A DNA stretch of 64,000 nt from Streptomyces sp. NBC_01549 (GTDB lineage: Bacteria; Actinomycetota; Actinomycetes; Streptomycetales; Streptomycetaceae). Made by a program: the position numbers and the translations under genes. Location: assembly GCF_026339955.1 (NCBI RefSeq), contig NZ_JAPEPW010000002.1, forward strand, positions 1,550,001 to 1,614,000, read 5' to 3'. The first letter of the stretch is position 1. The number at the start of each line of letters is the position of its first letter. Below the pieces are notes generated by a model. It ran no database searches. It saw only the letters and a list, made by a program, of their open reading frames with translations, and was not told the origin of the DNA. Positions 54,915 to 58,836 of the stretch are shown piece after piece.

Positions 54915-55892
54915 GTGACGATCACTTCTCCCCACCTTGGCAGCCCGCCCGCCGCCTGGACCGACGCTCGGCTGCTCTACGCGCTGGAAGAAGTGGTCGA
55001 GACCGAGCTCAACCGCCACCTCAAGGTGGCCAAGGACTGGATGCCGCACGAGTACGTGCCGTTCAGCGACGCCCGCAACTTCCCCGGCTTCTTCGAGGAC
55101 GGCGAGGCCTGGGACAAGGAGCAGTCCAAGGTCACGGAGATCGGCCGGATCGCGCTGGTCGTCAACCTGCTCACCGAGGACAACCTGCCGAGCTACCATC
55201 ACGAGATCGCCGCGCTCTTCGGCCGTGACGGCGCCTGGGGCACCTGGGTGCACCGCTGGACCGCGGAGGAGGGCCGGCACGGCATCGTGATGCGCGACTA
55301 CCTGCTCGCCTCGCGCGCCGTCGACCCCGACAAGCTCGAGGCGTTCCGTATGGCGCACATGAACGAGGGCTTCGAGTCGGACAACCGCCACTCGATGCTG
55401 CACACGGTCGCGTACGTCGCCTTCCAGGAGCTCGCGACCCGCGTCTCGCACCGCAACACCGGTCACCAGTCGGGCGACCCGGTCTGCGACCGCATGCTGG
55501 CGCGCATCGCGACCGACGAGAACCTGCACATGGTCTTCTACCGGAACCTGCTCAAGGCCGCGTTCGAGCTGGCCCCCGACCTGACCATGCAGTCCGTGCG
55601 CGACGTCGTCGTCGACTTCCGGATGCCCGGACACGGTATGCCCGGCTTCGAGCGCGCCGCCGCGCAGATGGCCATCGGCGAGGTCTACAACATGCGCATC
55701 CACCACGACGACGTGCTGCAGCCGGTGCTGCGTCACCTGAAGGTCCTGGAGATGGACGGCCTCGGCCCCGAGGGCCTGCAGGCCCAGGAGGAGCTCGGCT
55801 TCTTCATGGGCGGCCTGAACGCGGAGGCCTCGAAGTTCGACGAGAAGCTCGCGGCCCGCAAGGCGCGGATGGCCGCGCGCGCCGCCGGCTGA
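54915..55892 (+). CDS. Acyl-ACP desaturase (soluble diiron, DesA-type)
   Basis: A 325-residue ferritin-like desaturase that puts a cis double bond in acyl-ACP. Diiron ligands are E30 region (VETELNRHL), E118-E119xxH122 (AEEGRHG) and D201-E202xxH205 (TDENLHM), with another Glu in AFQELATR. The length and motifs match mycobacterial DesA and plant stearoyl-ACP desaturases. The GTG at 54915 has GGAG 6-7 nt upstream. Control by the upstream operator array would tie it to membrane fluidity. Confidence 0.92.
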   Translation: MTITSPHLGSPPAAWTDARLLYALEEVVETELNRHLKVAKDWMPHEYVPFSDARNFPGFFEDGEAWDKEQSKVTEIGRIALVVNLLTEDNLPSYHHEIAALFGRDGAWGTWVHRWTAEEGRHGIVMRDYLLASRAVDPDKLEAFRMAHMNEGFESDNRHSMLHTVAYVAFQELATRVSHRNTGHQSGDPVCDRMLARIATDENLHMVFYRNLLKAAFELAPDLTMQSVRDVVVDFRMPGHGMPGFERAAAQMAIGEVYNMRIHHDDVLQPVLRHLKVLEMDGLGPEGLQAQEELGFFMGGLNAEASKFDEKLAARKARMAARAAG

Positions 55893-55913: not shown

Positions 55914-56652
55914 TCACTCGTACGCCGTCACCTGGTCCAGCGCCACGTCCCACACGTCGGCCACCGGGTGGCGGCGCAGTGGCTCTCAGCCGCTCCCGCC
56001 AGGGCGCGGCCCAGCCCGTGCGGGCGCCGATCGCCCCGGTCACGGCCGCCGCGAGCAGTCCCTCGCCGTGTCCGCCGTGCGCACCCAGCCGCCGCACCAC
56101 GGCCAGCAGGACGTCGGGATCCCCCTCGTGCGCCTGCCGCCGCAGCCGCTCCCCGAGCTCCCGGGCCGTCCGTGCGGCACGCCCTCCCCCGCTGCCGAGC
56201 GGGTTGCGTTTGAGCCAGACGCCCGTGACGACCCGCGGTGAGGCGCGGAGGTTGTCGGCGATGCGGCAGGCGCCGCCCGCGGTGATCCCGTTGCAGCCGA
56301 GGTACAGCGTCTCGACCTCGGCACGCGCGGCGAACGCGGCGGCGCCCTCGTCGCCGAGCGCGTCGGTGCCGAGCAGCAAGTGCCGTACGGGAGAGGGTCC
56401 GTCCGAGACAGTGGACATCTCGGAGAGGGCCTCGGCGACCAGCGCCGCGCCCCGCGCTCCGAGTCCCTGCTTGCACAGGTCGAGGCGCCCGTCGGGCAGC
56501 GCCGTACCGCCCGTGAAGTCCAGCCGCTCGCCGGCCGGGCGGCCGTCGCGCAACCAGTCGAGCAACGGGGCGAGTTCGGTCAAAGGGCGCGGTACGACCG
56601 CCGGTACGCCCGCGAACCGCGGGTCCGGCTTCCACTCCGGCTCGCTCACCAT
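55914..56652 (-). pseudogene. Leucine-rich-repeat protein gene with an apparent frameshift near the 3' end
   Basis: From the ATG at 56652 the frame encodes MVSEPEWKPDPRFAGVP... with RNI-type LRR segments (LDLCKQGLGARGAALVAEAL, VETLYLGCNGITAGGACRIA, VWLKRNPLG). Near 55986 an extra T in CTCTC shifts the frame; beyond it another frame gives EPLRRHPVADVWDVALDQ and stops at 55914, which looks like the natural C-terminus. As given, translation would instead run to 55804 into the antisense of the desaturase gene. It overlaps the SDR gene start-to-stop and has AGGAGG upstream. A sequencing error is possible. Confidence 0.7.
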
Positions 56653-57980
56653 TCCGCCTCCTGGTAGTCCTTGAGGAACACCCCGGACACGGGTGCGCCC
56701 GCCTCGCCCCGCACGATCGGGTCGTACACCCGGGCCGCTCCGTCCACGATGTCGAGGGGGGTGCGGAACCCCGCGCCCGCCATCCGCTCCTTCTTGGGGG
56801 CGGGGTTCTCGTCGGTGATCCAGCCGGTGTCGACGGCACACATGTGCACGCCCTGCTCGGCAAGTTCGGTGGCGCTGGTGCGCGTGAGCATGTTGAGGGC
56901 GGCCTTGGCCATGTTGGTGTGCGGATGGCCCGCCGTCTTGTTCCGTACGGCGAAGCGGCCCTCGACGGCGGTCACGTTGACGACATATCGACGCGGGTGG
57001 GACGAGGCGAGCAGCAGGGGCAGCAGCCGGTCGCAGAGCAGTGCCGGGGCGAGCGCGTTGACCAACTGGGTCTCCAGGACCTCGGCCGGGTCGAGTTCGC
57101 CCAGCCGCGCCGACCAGGAGTTCTCCGGGGAGGGATCGGGCAGCAGCCCGGCCTCGTCGGCCTCCCGCAACGCCGCGGGGAGCGCCGAGGAACCACTCGC
57201 CAGCGCCCGCATCGGCGTGAACCCCGGCGCCTCCCGAGCCCCTTCGGGCAGCCCGGCGCGCTCCCCACCGGCCAGCAGCGCGTACGACTCGGCGGGCCGC
57301 CGCACCGTCTGCGCGGCGTTGTTGACCAGGATGTCGAGGGGCTCACCCTCCTGCCTCAGCTGCTCGCAGATCCCCAGTACCTGACGAGGATCACGGAGGT
57401 CCACCGCCAGCACCGTCAGCCGGTCCAGCCACTTCGCGCTGCCCGGTTCGACGCGGAAGCGACGCATGGTGTCGTGCGGGAAGCGGCTGGTGACCAGGAG
57501 TTCGGCGCCGTCGCGCAGCATCATCAGGGCCAGCTGGAAGCCGATCTTGACCCGGCCTCCGGTGAGCAGCGCGCGACGGCCGCTCAGGTCGGTGGCGAGC
57601 GCACGCCGGGCGGTGTTGTCCGAGGCGCAGTCCGGGCACAGCCGGTGGTAGAAGGCGTCGACCTGTCGATAGGGCGTCTTGCAGACATAGCAGGAACGGG
57701 GCTTCACGAAGACACCGCCGCCCCCGGGACGGTCGAGCGGTGCATCCTCCCGCCGGTCGAGCGCTCCCGTCGCGGTCGCGGCCATCACGGCCGCGTCGGC
57801 GGCGGAGAGTTCGGCGCCGCGCACCTTGCGCCTGCGCACCCGCCCGTCCCGCGCGAAGGACGCGGCGACCTGTTCGGCGCGCAGCCTCACCGGGTCGTCG
57901 ACGGGCAGCGCCCGCAGCTTGCCGACCGTACGATGGAATGCCGCCAGTTCGTCCTGCGTGATCGCGCCGCCGTCACCCAT
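56646..57980 (-). CDS. Zinc-ribbon-containing short-chain dehydrogenase lacking the catalytic Tyr
   Basis: A 444-residue protein. Residues 97-118 hold a four-Cys zinc ribbon (CYVC...CPDC). From ~135 an SDR-like Rossmann domain follows with TGGRVKIG in place of TGxxxGxG and ILVNNAAQ (217-224). The expected Ser region reads VNVTAVEG and the YxxxK motif reads N356-M-A-K359, so the catalytic Tyr is missing; ~70 inserted residues (230-300) separate the two parts. It may bind NAD(P) without classical catalysis. The LRR gene overlaps its stop by 7 nt. The tRNA-like pair lies just upstream on the same strand. Confidence 0.82.
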   Translation of the reverse strand: MGDGGAITQDELAAFHRTVGKLRALPVDDPVRLRAEQVAASFARDGRVRRRKVRGAELSAADAAVMAATATGALDRREDAPLDRPGGGGVFVKPRSCYVCKTPYRQVDAFYHRLCPDCASDNTARRALATDLSGRRALLTGGRVKIGFQLALMMLRDGAELLVTSRFPHDTMRRFRVEPGSAKWLDRLTVLAVDLRDPRQVLGICEQLRQEGEPLDILVNNAAQTVRRPAESYALLAGGERAGLPEGAREAPGFTPMRALASGSSALPAALREADEAGLLPDPSPENSWSARLGELDPAEVLETQLVNALAPALLCDRLLPLLLASSHPRRYVVNVTAVEGRFAVRNKTAGHPHTNMAKAALNMLTRTSATELAEQGVHMCAVDTGWITDENPAPKKERMAGAGFRTPLDIVDGAARVYDPIVRGEAGAPVSGVFLKDYQEAEW

Positions 57981-58008
57981 GTGTCCCCGCCCCGCGTGTG
58001 CGCCGCCG

Positions 58009-58080
58009 TGGTCCTGACCGGATTCGAACCGGCGTATCCGCCTTGAGAGGGCGGCGAGTCTGCCTCTGCTCTACAGGACC
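58009..58080 (-). tRNA. tRNA-like gene, anticodon CTC (Glu-type)
   Basis: A full cloverleaf can be drawn: acceptor GGTCCTG/CAGGACC plus A73, D arm GAG...CTC with a short irregular stem, anticodon arm CCGCC-CTCTCAA-GGCGG, a 4-nt variable loop and T arm GCCGG-TTCGAAT-CCGGT. No CCA is encoded. The anticodon and T arms resemble Streptomyces tRNA-Glu(CTC); the acceptor and D arms do not. It sits 28 bp upstream of the SDR start. Charging identity is uncertain. Confidence 0.7.
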
Positions 58081-58111
58081 CTGCTGTCCCGGTCCGTCCG
58101 GCCGGACGCAG

Positions 58112-58183
58112 CCCGGACGACCGGATTCGAACCGGCGTATCCGCCTTGCCAAGGCGGCGAGTCTGCCTCTGCTCTACGCCCGG
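58112..58183 (-). tRNA. tRNA-like gene, anticodon GGC (Ala codon), sharing its core with the neighbour
   Basis: Cloverleaf: acceptor CCGGGCG/CGTCCGG (one G-U) plus G73, anticodon arm CCGCC-TTGGCAA-GGCGG, and D arm, variable loop and T arm identical to the gene 31 bp away. The acceptor can extend to 8 bp. The anticodon GGC would read GCC, but the G3-U70 pair needed for alanine charging is absent. No CCA is encoded. It is probably a divergent duplicate with an unusual or non-standard role. Confidence 0.65.
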
Positions 58184-58354
58184 GTGCGCCACGGGGATCG
58201 TAACCACCGCACGCCGGATGGCCCCACCGAATTACGGCAGGGCACCGCATCACGACAGGGCACCGGACCGGGGCAAGGTACCGCCCGGACGCGGCTGTTC
58301 ACGGCGTCCGGCGCGAGGCCCTGCGCCGTAGGGGGCAGTTCGGCGTCGTAGGGG

Positions 58355-58603
58355 TCAGTTCTGGTCCGAGCGCCGGAGGCTGAGCCGTTCCTTCTCGGAC
58401 AGGCCGCCCCAGACTCCGAAGCGTTCGTCGTTGTTCAGCGCGTACTCGAGGCAGACGGAGCGCATCTCGCACATCGCGCAGATGCGCTTGGCCTCACGCA
58501 CCGAGCTGCCCGGCTCGGGAAAGAAGAAATCGGCCCCGGTCTGCGCGCACAACGCCTGCTCCTGCCAGGCGGAGTCGGCCGGGGTGATGGTGTCGGTGTG
58601 CAT
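58355..58603 (-). CDS. WhiB-like (Wbl) iron-sulfur regulator
   Basis: An 82-residue Wbl protein. The four cluster Cys are in ALCAQTG and ICAMCEMRSVC, followed by the GVWGGLS turn and a basic tail ERLSLRR. Wbl proteins carry an oxygen- or NO-sensitive [4Fe-4S] cluster and act with the main sigma factor on developmental and stress genes. By position it may be the wblJ orthologue; I am not sure. The ATG at 58603 starts the conserved part; the frame is open to 58720. Confidence 0.9.
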   Translation of the reverse strand: MHTDTITPADSAWQEQALCAQTGADFFFPEPGSSVREAKRICAMCEMRSVCLEYALNNDERFGVWGGLSEKERLSLRRSDQN

Positions 58604-58684
58604 GACGACGATCGTGCCGCGCGGCGAAAAACGTTCGATCAACGCGGGATCAACGCCACGTTCCGAGGCGCCAGGCGGCTCGCC

Positions 58685-58712
58685 GCAAAGTATGAAAACA
58701 AAACAAACATAA
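58685..58712 (-). promoter_or_regulatory. AT-rich stretch in the Wbl promoter region
   Basis: About 28 bp (AAAGTATGAAAACAAAACAA and following) are mostly A on the plus strand, unusual in DNA of ~72% GC. It is ~80-110 bp upstream of the Wbl ATG. It may hold the promoter (CATACT on the minus strand) or a site for an AT-seeking nucleoid protein such as Lsr2. Confidence 0.45.
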
Positions 58713-58836
58713 CCGATCACCCAGGGTAATCACCATGGTCTCTCCTGCCGGTGGTGGGAGTCCTGGCAGCGATTGTCAGTGGGCGGTGCCAGACTCGGCA
58801 GTACAGGCAACGGGACCCCTCAAAGGAGGGCACAAC

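Follow-up and report, generated by a model that had tools for sequence, protein, structure and literature searches.

Paired tRNA-shaped genes upstream of a zinc-ribbon SDR gene in Streptomyces: members of an actinobacterial RNA family with a possible role as tRNA mimics

The paired genes and their neighbourhood

The window considered here, a stretch of 64,000 nucleotides from Streptomyces sp. NBC_01549, carries on its minus strand two tRNA-shaped genes upstream of a gene for a zinc-ribbon SDR (Table 1). The order on that strand is the GGC gene, 31 nt, the CTC gene, 28 nt and the SDR start codon. ARAGORN reads the two genes as tRNA-Glu(ctc) at 58008-58080 and tRNA-Ala(ggc) at 58111-58183, both on the minus strand, and Rfam places both in RF00005, with 58.4 bits for the CTC gene (58009-58080) and 52.0 bits for the GGC gene (58112-58183). 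The D arm, position 26, the anticodon stem CCGCC/GGCGG, the variable loop ATAC and the T arm are identical in both genes, the bodies of which differ at the 7-nt anticodon loop and the acceptor stem alone. Each has a 7-bp acceptor, a 5-bp T stem and T33, followed by C34 in one and G34 in the other. The original prediction had described two cloverleaf genes 31 nt apart sharing one core, with different anticodons (CTC and GGC) and acceptors (GGTCCTG and CCGGGCG), a GGC gene lacking G3-U70 and a zinc-ribbon SDR beginning 28 nt past the CTC gene. ARAGORN, Rfam RF00005 and the sequence itself bear out this description, position 3:70 of the GGC gene being G3-C70 and the SDR start lying at 57980.

Table 1. 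Coordinates of the features at the locus, numbered from the first base of the window
Feature	Position	Strand	Details	Basis
Leucine-rich-repeat (LRR) gene, 5' part, after the SDR gene	56140..56652	-		tblastn of L135 relative
Zinc-ribbon pseudo-SDR, 444 aa	56646..57980	-	C97/C100/C115/C118, TGGRVKIG, Ala338, Thr355	Pfam, alignment, model
tRNA-shaped RNA no. 1 (proximal)	58009..58080	-	anticodon CTC (loop CTCTCAA), acceptor GGTCCTG/CAGGACC, A73, extra acceptor pairs = 0; open type	ARAGORN, Rfam
3' trailer of RNA no. 2	58105..58111	-	C58111 bulged, next six bases predicted to pair with 58190-58185	RNA fold
tRNA-shaped RNA no. 2 (distal, transcribed first)	58112..58183	-	anticodon loop TTGGCAA (GGC), acceptor CCGGGCG/CGTCCGG, G73; closed long-stem type	ARAGORN, Rfam, RNA fold
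5' leader of RNA no. 2	58184..58190	-	predicted to pair with position 73 and the 3' trailer, lengthening the acceptor helix	RNA fold
-10-like hexamer TACGAT	58197..58202	-	13 nt 5' of position 1 of RNA no. 2	sequence

The GGC gene and its flanks are predicted to form a 14-bp acceptor helix (58190-58177 with 58119-58105) containing one bulged C, and only 3/200 shuffled sequences folded equally well (z -2.44). The CTC gene with its flanks folded no better than shuffles (z -0.86; 36/200), and the same was true of the 216-nt stretch holding both RNAs (z -0.88; 39/200). The position of TACGAT agrees with the family-wide -10 peak described below; a sigma-70 scan, in which a -35 element was also required, found no promoter before the pair.

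RF00005 has 75 matches in this genome, a total that takes in the pair as well as ordinary Glu(CTC) and Ala(GGC) genes. RNA no. 1 has the same anticodon arm as the host tRNA-Glu(CTC) and the same acceptor as the host tRNA-Asp, but it carries A73 where tRNA-Asp has G73; the GGC gene has the loop TTGGCAA and the host tRNA-Ala(GGC) a different one, ATGGCAT. Compared with the ordinary tRNA-Glu, tRNA-Asp and tRNA-Ala, the pair differs in its D arm, discriminator and gene setting. The closest relatives found are the SDR-linked RNAs of S. olivochromogenes DSM 40451 (L204), whose SDR is 96% identical to that of the window; these RNAs are identical or one base different, the distal RNAs of the two loci being separated by a single base at anticodon position 35 (GCC in L204). 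The suspicion that these were not normal isoacceptors therefore stands, the pair having its nearest relatives beside an SDR gene and not being orthologous to the tRNA-Glu and tRNA-Ala genes found elsewhere in the genome. That they are simply ordinary Glu and Ala isoacceptors is ruled out by the gene setting and by the presence of those normal genes.

Pfam PF00106 and Foldseek matches assign the SDR protein to the SDR Rossmann fold, and its predicted model is confident (pLDDT 88) and matches ordinary SDRs in a structure search. In NCBIfam its matches, judged from the best 25 of 153, were to general SDR models scoring under their cut-offs. The four zinc-ribbon cysteines, TG(G/A)R(V/A/I)KIG, NNA, Lys359 and Thr355 are conserved in all 82 SDR sequences that were collected. 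Ala338 and Thr355 occupy what we take to be the positions of the usual catalytic Ser and Tyr, respectively, of classical SDRs. Ala338 is present in 60/62 SDRs linked to an RNA of the present kind and in 20/20 unlinked ones, and Thr355 in 62/62 linked ones, linkage being scored here with a relaxed RNA pattern within 700 nt. With both positions replaced, a classical dehydrogenase mechanism would be unlikely. The Ser and Tyr replacements are shared by SDR paralogues without the RNA, so this loss is not specific to the RNA-linked proteins.

The LRR gene that follows aligns by tblastn with residues 1-166 of its 418-aa relative in L135, and many relatives are near full length; since only this portion aligns, the gene appears to be truncated in this genome. 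No NCBIfam match was obtained for two LRR proteins, and a PADLOC defence-system search gave no match for the SDR or LRR proteins. The genes annotated near the pair are WhiB, SDR, LRR remnant, desaturase, glyoxalase and ADI. The WhiB-family gene (58355-58720, minus strand) lies just upstream of the pair, and WhiB-like sequence was recognised by eye upstream of the SDR in L061 and L063 too. Rfam also reports ASdes (RF01781, 71.5 bits) at 55269-55336 on the minus strand, antisense inside the fatty-acid desaturase gene (54915-55892). ASdes is a mycobacterial sRNA, and the match may represent sequence common to desaturase genes and not an sRNA.

A family with constant body and changing anticodon

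By sequence, the pair belongs to a family of tRNA-shaped RNAs with constant D and T arms, variable anticodon arms and covarying acceptor stems. A DNA search of 61 genomes combined with ARAGORN recovered tRNA-shaped genes with similar D and T arms and varied anticodons, including GAC, GTC, GCT, TCA, CGC, CAC, CCG, GCG, TCG, CCA and GCA. A strict pattern was present in 99/391 genomes of the order, with no match to a backward control pattern in the same 391-genome table, and in 2/396 genomes across the phylum, one of them being the genome of the window. A named scan gave at least 118 stretches matching the family pattern, and the genera among the matches listed are Streptomyces, Kitasatospora, Streptacidiphilus, Actinospica, Catenulispora, Actinoplanes, Micromonospora, Dactylosporangium, Lentzea, Amycolatopsis, Kutzneria, Actinomadura, Nocardiopsis and others. 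Copies are single or stand in rows of two to five. Most bases in the D loop and T arm are prescribed by the search pattern, and conservation in these parts is to some extent built in; many loci entered the set through their match to the pattern, and the sequences are related, so the counts given below are not independent events. An identical core shared by different anticodons is a property of the whole family, not a peculiarity of this locus. Since both the acceptor and the anticodon differ from member to member, the missing G3-U70 of the GGC gene weighs less than was first thought.

Covariation was assessed in the 176 unique elements whose anticodon stem has 4 or more pairs, a filter that favours the anticodon stem but not the other stems. 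Standard pairs account for 94-98% at acceptor positions 1:72 to 5:68 and at anticodon-stem positions 29:41 to 31:39, against 45-57% after shuffling of partners; pair 31:39 alone is paired in 98% (53% shuffled) and uses six pair types. Smaller margins over the shuffled value were obtained for pairs 11:24 (99% vs 72%), 27:43 (90% vs 60%), 6:67 (86% vs 72%) and 28:42 (98% vs 92%). Pairs 7:66, 10:25 and 12:23 are nearly invariant and uninformative for covariation, and 13:22 is mostly unpaired (18% paired). Among all 216 non-redundant elements, G15 is present in 216, as fixed by the pattern, and two bases outside the pattern are almost constant, namely C48 (212/216) and G21 (215/216), the latter being, in our numbering, the G that precedes position 22.

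The anticodon loop behaves differently in different parts of the family. In the GTAGAGC type of Streptomyces (19 unique sequences before the SDR), the D and T arms are invariant except at T-stem position 65, which is C or T opposite G49, and the loop varies chiefly at positions 32, 34, 35 and 38; position 36 is C and 37 is A in 19/19, and U33 is kept in 18/19. Among the 184 elements with a good anticodon stem, the other 32/216 having no 4- or 5-pair stem and being omitted from loop counts, U33 is present in 144 and missing in 40. C37, in place of the usual purine, was observed in 17/68 elements with A36 and 7/12 with T36, against 3/90 with C36 and 3/14 with G36, and might block modification of position 37. 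In nine of the ten LRR-linked RNAs the anticodon arm does not form a standard stem of 4 or more pairs. An SDR-linked RNA of Catenulispora (L068-L074) has a 27-nt anticodon arm that is the same in six of the seven loci and one base off in L069; ARAGORN reads it as tRNA-Gly in L069 only, and in L068 it scores 45.6 bits with the Rfam tRNA model. When unique loops were compared with a genuine loop of the same anticodon at positions 32, 33, 37 and 38, 11/68 matched, against a permuted mean of 4.8 (P 0.0025), and 8/184 anticodon arms are identical to an arm of the tRNAs of this genome. This resemblance argues against free drift of the loops and would favour imitation of real tRNAs.

Linkage to the SDR gene was examined, with the counts made by hand, in the 391 genomes of the order, of which 65 hold a full orthologue (460 bits or more). 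The RNA pattern occurs in 48/65 of these and in 51/326 genomes without the SDR. In 46/65 an exact-pattern RNA directly precedes the SDR gene on the same strand, at a distance of up to about 250 nt, and three more genomes (G013, G365 and G090) have a diverged copy in this position. For the other 16/65, no RNA was found directly upstream by coordinates and in the fetched stretches; one of them (G375) has a copy just downstream of the SDR, and for another (G141) the upstream stretch that was fetched yielded none. ARAGORN detected the RNA at 0/14 loci of a distant SDR paralogue. The proposed link between the pair and the zinc-ribbon SDR is accordingly upheld by its conservation, relatives of the pair standing beside the same SDR in many genomes.

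When the 216 elements were assigned by looking downstream on the same strand only, 102 preceded an SDR gene, 16 an ankyrin gene and 10 an LRR gene, and 88 preceded none of these; the last group includes L269, which has AT-rich flanks and is probably an ordinary tRNA. The LRR gene follows the SDR in many loci, as in the window, and SDR-linked copies retain some common neighbour families in many Streptomyces. The predicted model of the ankyrin protein (pLDDT 87) matches ankyrins across the repeats, PADLOC matches are confined to the same repeats, and only repeats were identified. At L250 two ankyrin genes stand in tandem, with a copy of the RNA just upstream of each.

Anticodon CCA combined with the absence of all three genes downstream was recorded for 46 of the 216 elements. 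Ten CCA loci, read over 6.6-12 kb, had no adjacent gene family in common, barring one locus and its duplicate. Several of the CCA elements (L096, L100, L101, L105, L115 and others) have the tRNA-Trp-like loop CTCCAAA, a -10-like box and a long closed acceptor, and at least six CCA copies (L099, L104, L110, L159, L195 and L208) are located downstream of a gene for an SDR or LRR protein. One CCA-type RNA occurs with its neighbours twice, near both ends of a 9.0 Mb contig (L123 and L125), as in terminal repeats. In Catenulispora, separate rows of 2-4 RNAs are found upstream of an MFS transporter gene (L075-L080) with, where read, an aldehyde dehydrogenase gene on the upstream side of the rows (by annotation in L075 and by gene clustering in the others), and L076 and L077 have one TCA copy each. 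At L119, L150 and L207 the RNA adjoins a gene assigned by eye as ileS on the opposite strand.

Bases 5' of position 1 form at least three contiguous extra pairs with position 73 onward in 118/215 elements (one of the 216 was omitted for a short flank), against 1/71 ordinary tRNAs of this genome. Such extended stems are found in 40/101 SDR-linked, 8/10 LRR-linked and 12/16 ankyrin-linked elements and in 58/88 of those with none of the three genes. Mean extra pairs exceed the partner-shuffled value in the SDR (1.77 vs 0.68), ankyrin (3.06 vs 1.49) and unassigned groups (3.59 vs 1.69), and equal it in the LRR group (3.20 vs 3.14). The window GGC gene is credited with only 1 extra pair by this count in spite of its bulged 14-bp helix, so bulged helices escape it. 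An energy-based test separated most groups poorly from their shuffled controls, with means (shuffled) of -9.9 (-8.3) for last and -12.7 (-10.0) for earlier SDR copies, -13.3 (-12.8) for LRR, -12.8 (-11.2) for ankyrin, -15.5 (-14.1) for CCA and -12.8 (-9.9) for other elements, and -4.8 for genuine tRNAs; this test is weak because the flanks are G+C rich, and the contiguous-pair count was used instead.

Zero extra pairs were counted in 53/215 elements, 34 of them with A73, and 43 of the 53 precede an SDR; these make up 43/101 of SDR-linked RNAs, and 29 of the 43 have A73. Two ends of a range appear to emerge, comprising closed RNAs, in which the 3' end would be buried in a long helix, and open RNAs. 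The open A73 members linked to the SDR could be processed and charged. The idea that copies directly before the SDR constitute the open A73 class was rejected, A73 being present in 26/69 last copies and 10/32 earlier ones, and open RNAs are not confined to the copy adjoining the gene.

Among 169 first copies with 60 nt of upstream sequence, taken from 170 clusters, TANNNT occurs within 8-24 nt before the copy in 135, against 5/338 control stretches. The box is present in 43/69 SDR-linked, 10/10 LRR-linked, 15/15 ankyrin-linked and 67/75 unassigned first copies; for ordinary tRNA genes the figure is 9/35, against 5/35 in the control stretch. In 122/135 cases the hexamer ends 9-13 nt before position 1, a spacing with which transcription would start at the base of the long stem.

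Taken together, these features bear on whether the genes are functionless, decaying duplicates of ordinary tRNA genes. The host-like anticodon arm and acceptor of RNA no. 1 would fit such an origin, as would copies that look degenerate (G013). Decay would not, however, be expected to leave covarying acceptor and anticodon stems, fixed C48 and G21, -10-like boxes and repeated linkage to three gene families in many genera, and this reading is disfavoured as very improbable.

Mimicry, leader function or translation

The changing anticodon and the position at the front of operons suggest a job other than protein synthesis. Our preferred reading, to which we give a probability of about 0.4, is that the pair are tRNA-mimic RNAs acting with the protein of the operon they head. 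Comparison of the sequences supports several parts of this reading. Transcription probably begins a few bases 5' of position 1, given the narrow distance of the -10-like box before the first copy, and the RNA retains the cloverleaf and the elbow bases of a tRNA. In over half of the members, pairing of leader and trailer places position 73 onward in a helix, so that no free CCA end is left; a smaller class has zero extra pairs and often A73. One to five such copies precede a same-strand gene for an SDR, LRR or ankyrin protein, most with an anticodon arm in which the stem is kept and the loop changes, and a few with an arm equal to that of a real host tRNA. The zinc-ribbon SDR, with its Ser and Tyr replaced, may serve as a tRNA-binding scaffold that grips the constant elbow of the RNA, and the complex might handle or sense an agent acting on tRNAs, for example an enzyme that cleaves or modifies tRNAs, the variable anticodon arm serving as bait. 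A scaffold and bait of this kind would account for a conserved body and partner alongside a changing anticodon. A bolder and less likely form of the proposal is a new actinobacterial RNA-protein system. In it the RNAs, shaped like tRNAs, would act as guide or bait, with the constant elbow as handle and a swappable anticodon arm; they would be held by the catalytically altered SDR, or by one of the LRR and ankyrin proteins, and would serve to detect agents attacking or modifying tRNAs, or to neutralise them. The anticodon would then change because the enemy changes. Speaking for mimicry are the linkage to the SDR, the covarying stems, the nearly constant C48 and G21, the extended acceptors, the -10-like boxes, the replaced Ser and Tyr of the SDR, the loops that resemble genuine ones above chance and the precedent of the TRMT10C-SDR5C1 complex. 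Counting against mimicry are the 88/216 elements with none of the three genes downstream and the 16/65 SDRs with no RNA found directly upstream, the shuffled-level pairing of the LRR group and the poor separation in the energy test, the equally altered unlinked SDR paralogues, the 43/101 SDR-linked RNAs that are open, and the nine of ten LRR-linked arms without a standard stem.

The position of the RNA is also consistent with a cis-acting leader, in which the RNA forms the 5' end of the mRNA of the operon and sets the stability or translation of that mRNA, for example through cleavage by RNase P or RNase Z or through binding of the operon product, the anticodon arm mattering little. All 128/216 assigned elements are upstream of their gene on the same strand, as the downstream, same-strand assignment dictates, only 28 nt separate RNA and start codon in the window, the -10-like box is placed so that the mRNA would start at the RNA, and the tandem ankyrin genes of L250 have a copy each. 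Counting against a leader are the 88/216 elements without such a gene, of which 67/75 first copies have the box, and the six or more CCA copies downstream of an SDR or LRR gene. Compensatory changes that keep the anticodon stem, and loops that resemble genuine ones above chance, likewise sit badly with an arm that matters little, and this explanation is a minority possibility.

Deliberate mistranslation by dual-identity tRNAs, in which one body would carry one amino acid and the anticodon would vary by species, has an obvious precedent for the open class in tRNA-ProX, for which excerpts of the source likewise describe a constant body, several anticodons and G21 (PMC11415595). The 53/215 elements without an extra acceptor pair, 34 of them with A73, are compatible with this possibility. 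So are the GTAGAGC type, in which U33 (18/19) and A37 (19/19) are kept and positions 34 and 35 vary on invariant D and T arms, and the single anticodon base that separates the distal copies of the window and L204. Among the genes annotated around the pair in the window, on the other hand, there is no synthetase gene, the sole ProRS above the family cut-off in the genome is on a different contig, and the putative ileS beside three other members lies on the opposite strand. U33 is lost in 40/184, the 27-nt arm of Catenulispora and the stemless arms of 9/10 LRR-linked RNAs cannot decode normally, and the acceptor stem is extended in 118/215. A role in translation is hard to reconcile with the closed class and with the aberrant anticodon arms, and for the family it is unlikely. 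The earlier suggestion of a non-translational role stands in part: it agrees with the extended acceptor stems and with the loss of U33 in part of the family, while the open class could be translational.

The family is apparently undescribed and is widespread in soil actinobacteria; no description of it was found in the open-licence full-text literature, and a paper elsewhere could be missed. ARAGORN and Rfam class its members as ordinary tRNAs (RF00005, the general tRNA model, for the members scanned in Rfam), and since tRNA finders file them by anticodon, the family may have stayed hidden in actinobacterial genomes. If the RNAs are not for translation, they would represent a novel class of regulatory or defence RNA, tRNA-like in shape and with a dedicated protein partner; if they do serve translation, programmed mistranslation would extend far beyond tRNA-ProX.

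Relation to known systems

In excerpts of the published accounts, tRNA-ProX of Streptomyces and Kitasatospora, which works with ProRSx, has A15-A48, A33 and G21 and bears several anticodons on one body (PMC11415595); the dual-identity precedent is also treated in PMC10365949. The present family shares with it the bacterial group, the one body with several anticodons and G21 (215/216). It differs in having G15-C48 (C48 in 212/216) and not A15-A48, and mostly U33 (144/184) and rarely A34 where tRNA-ProX has A33 and A34; in addition, no ProRSx gene stands beside the pair, the acceptor is often extended, and an SDR, LRR or ankyrin gene is downstream in 128/216.

Allo-tRNAs have an 8/4 or 9/3 split between acceptor and T stem. 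Unlike these, the family keeps a 7/5 split within the tRNA, and its extra pairs lie outside positions 1-72. Bacterial Y RNAs (YrlA) and tmRNA carry a tRNA-shaped part on a helix joining their 5' and 3' ends and do not serve ordinary decoding. The present family, in contrast, has a full anticodon arm, and no match to a described Y RNA was obtained, RF00005 being the only model to reach its gathering score for the window RNAs and four other loci. What the family shares with allo-tRNAs is a non-standard acceptor branch in bacterial tRNAs (PMC7609411).

The arrangement of one to five RNA copies upstream of a same-strand gene is reminiscent of type III toxin-antitoxin systems, but the downstream gene in the window encodes an SDR and not an endoribonuclease of the ToxN or CptN type. 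With classical SDR dehydrogenases the window protein shares the Rossmann fold and Lys359, and it differs from them in the Ala338 and Thr355 that replace the catalytic Ser and Tyr. A precedent for an SDR working with tRNA is the TRMT10C-SDR5C1 complex, a tRNA maturation platform of human mitochondria according to excerpts of the source (PMC11996679). Both cases involve an SDR-family protein, SDR5C1 sitting in a tRNA-binding complex and the window SDR being a presumed binder of tRNA, and the window protein is set apart by its zinc ribbon and altered catalytic residues.
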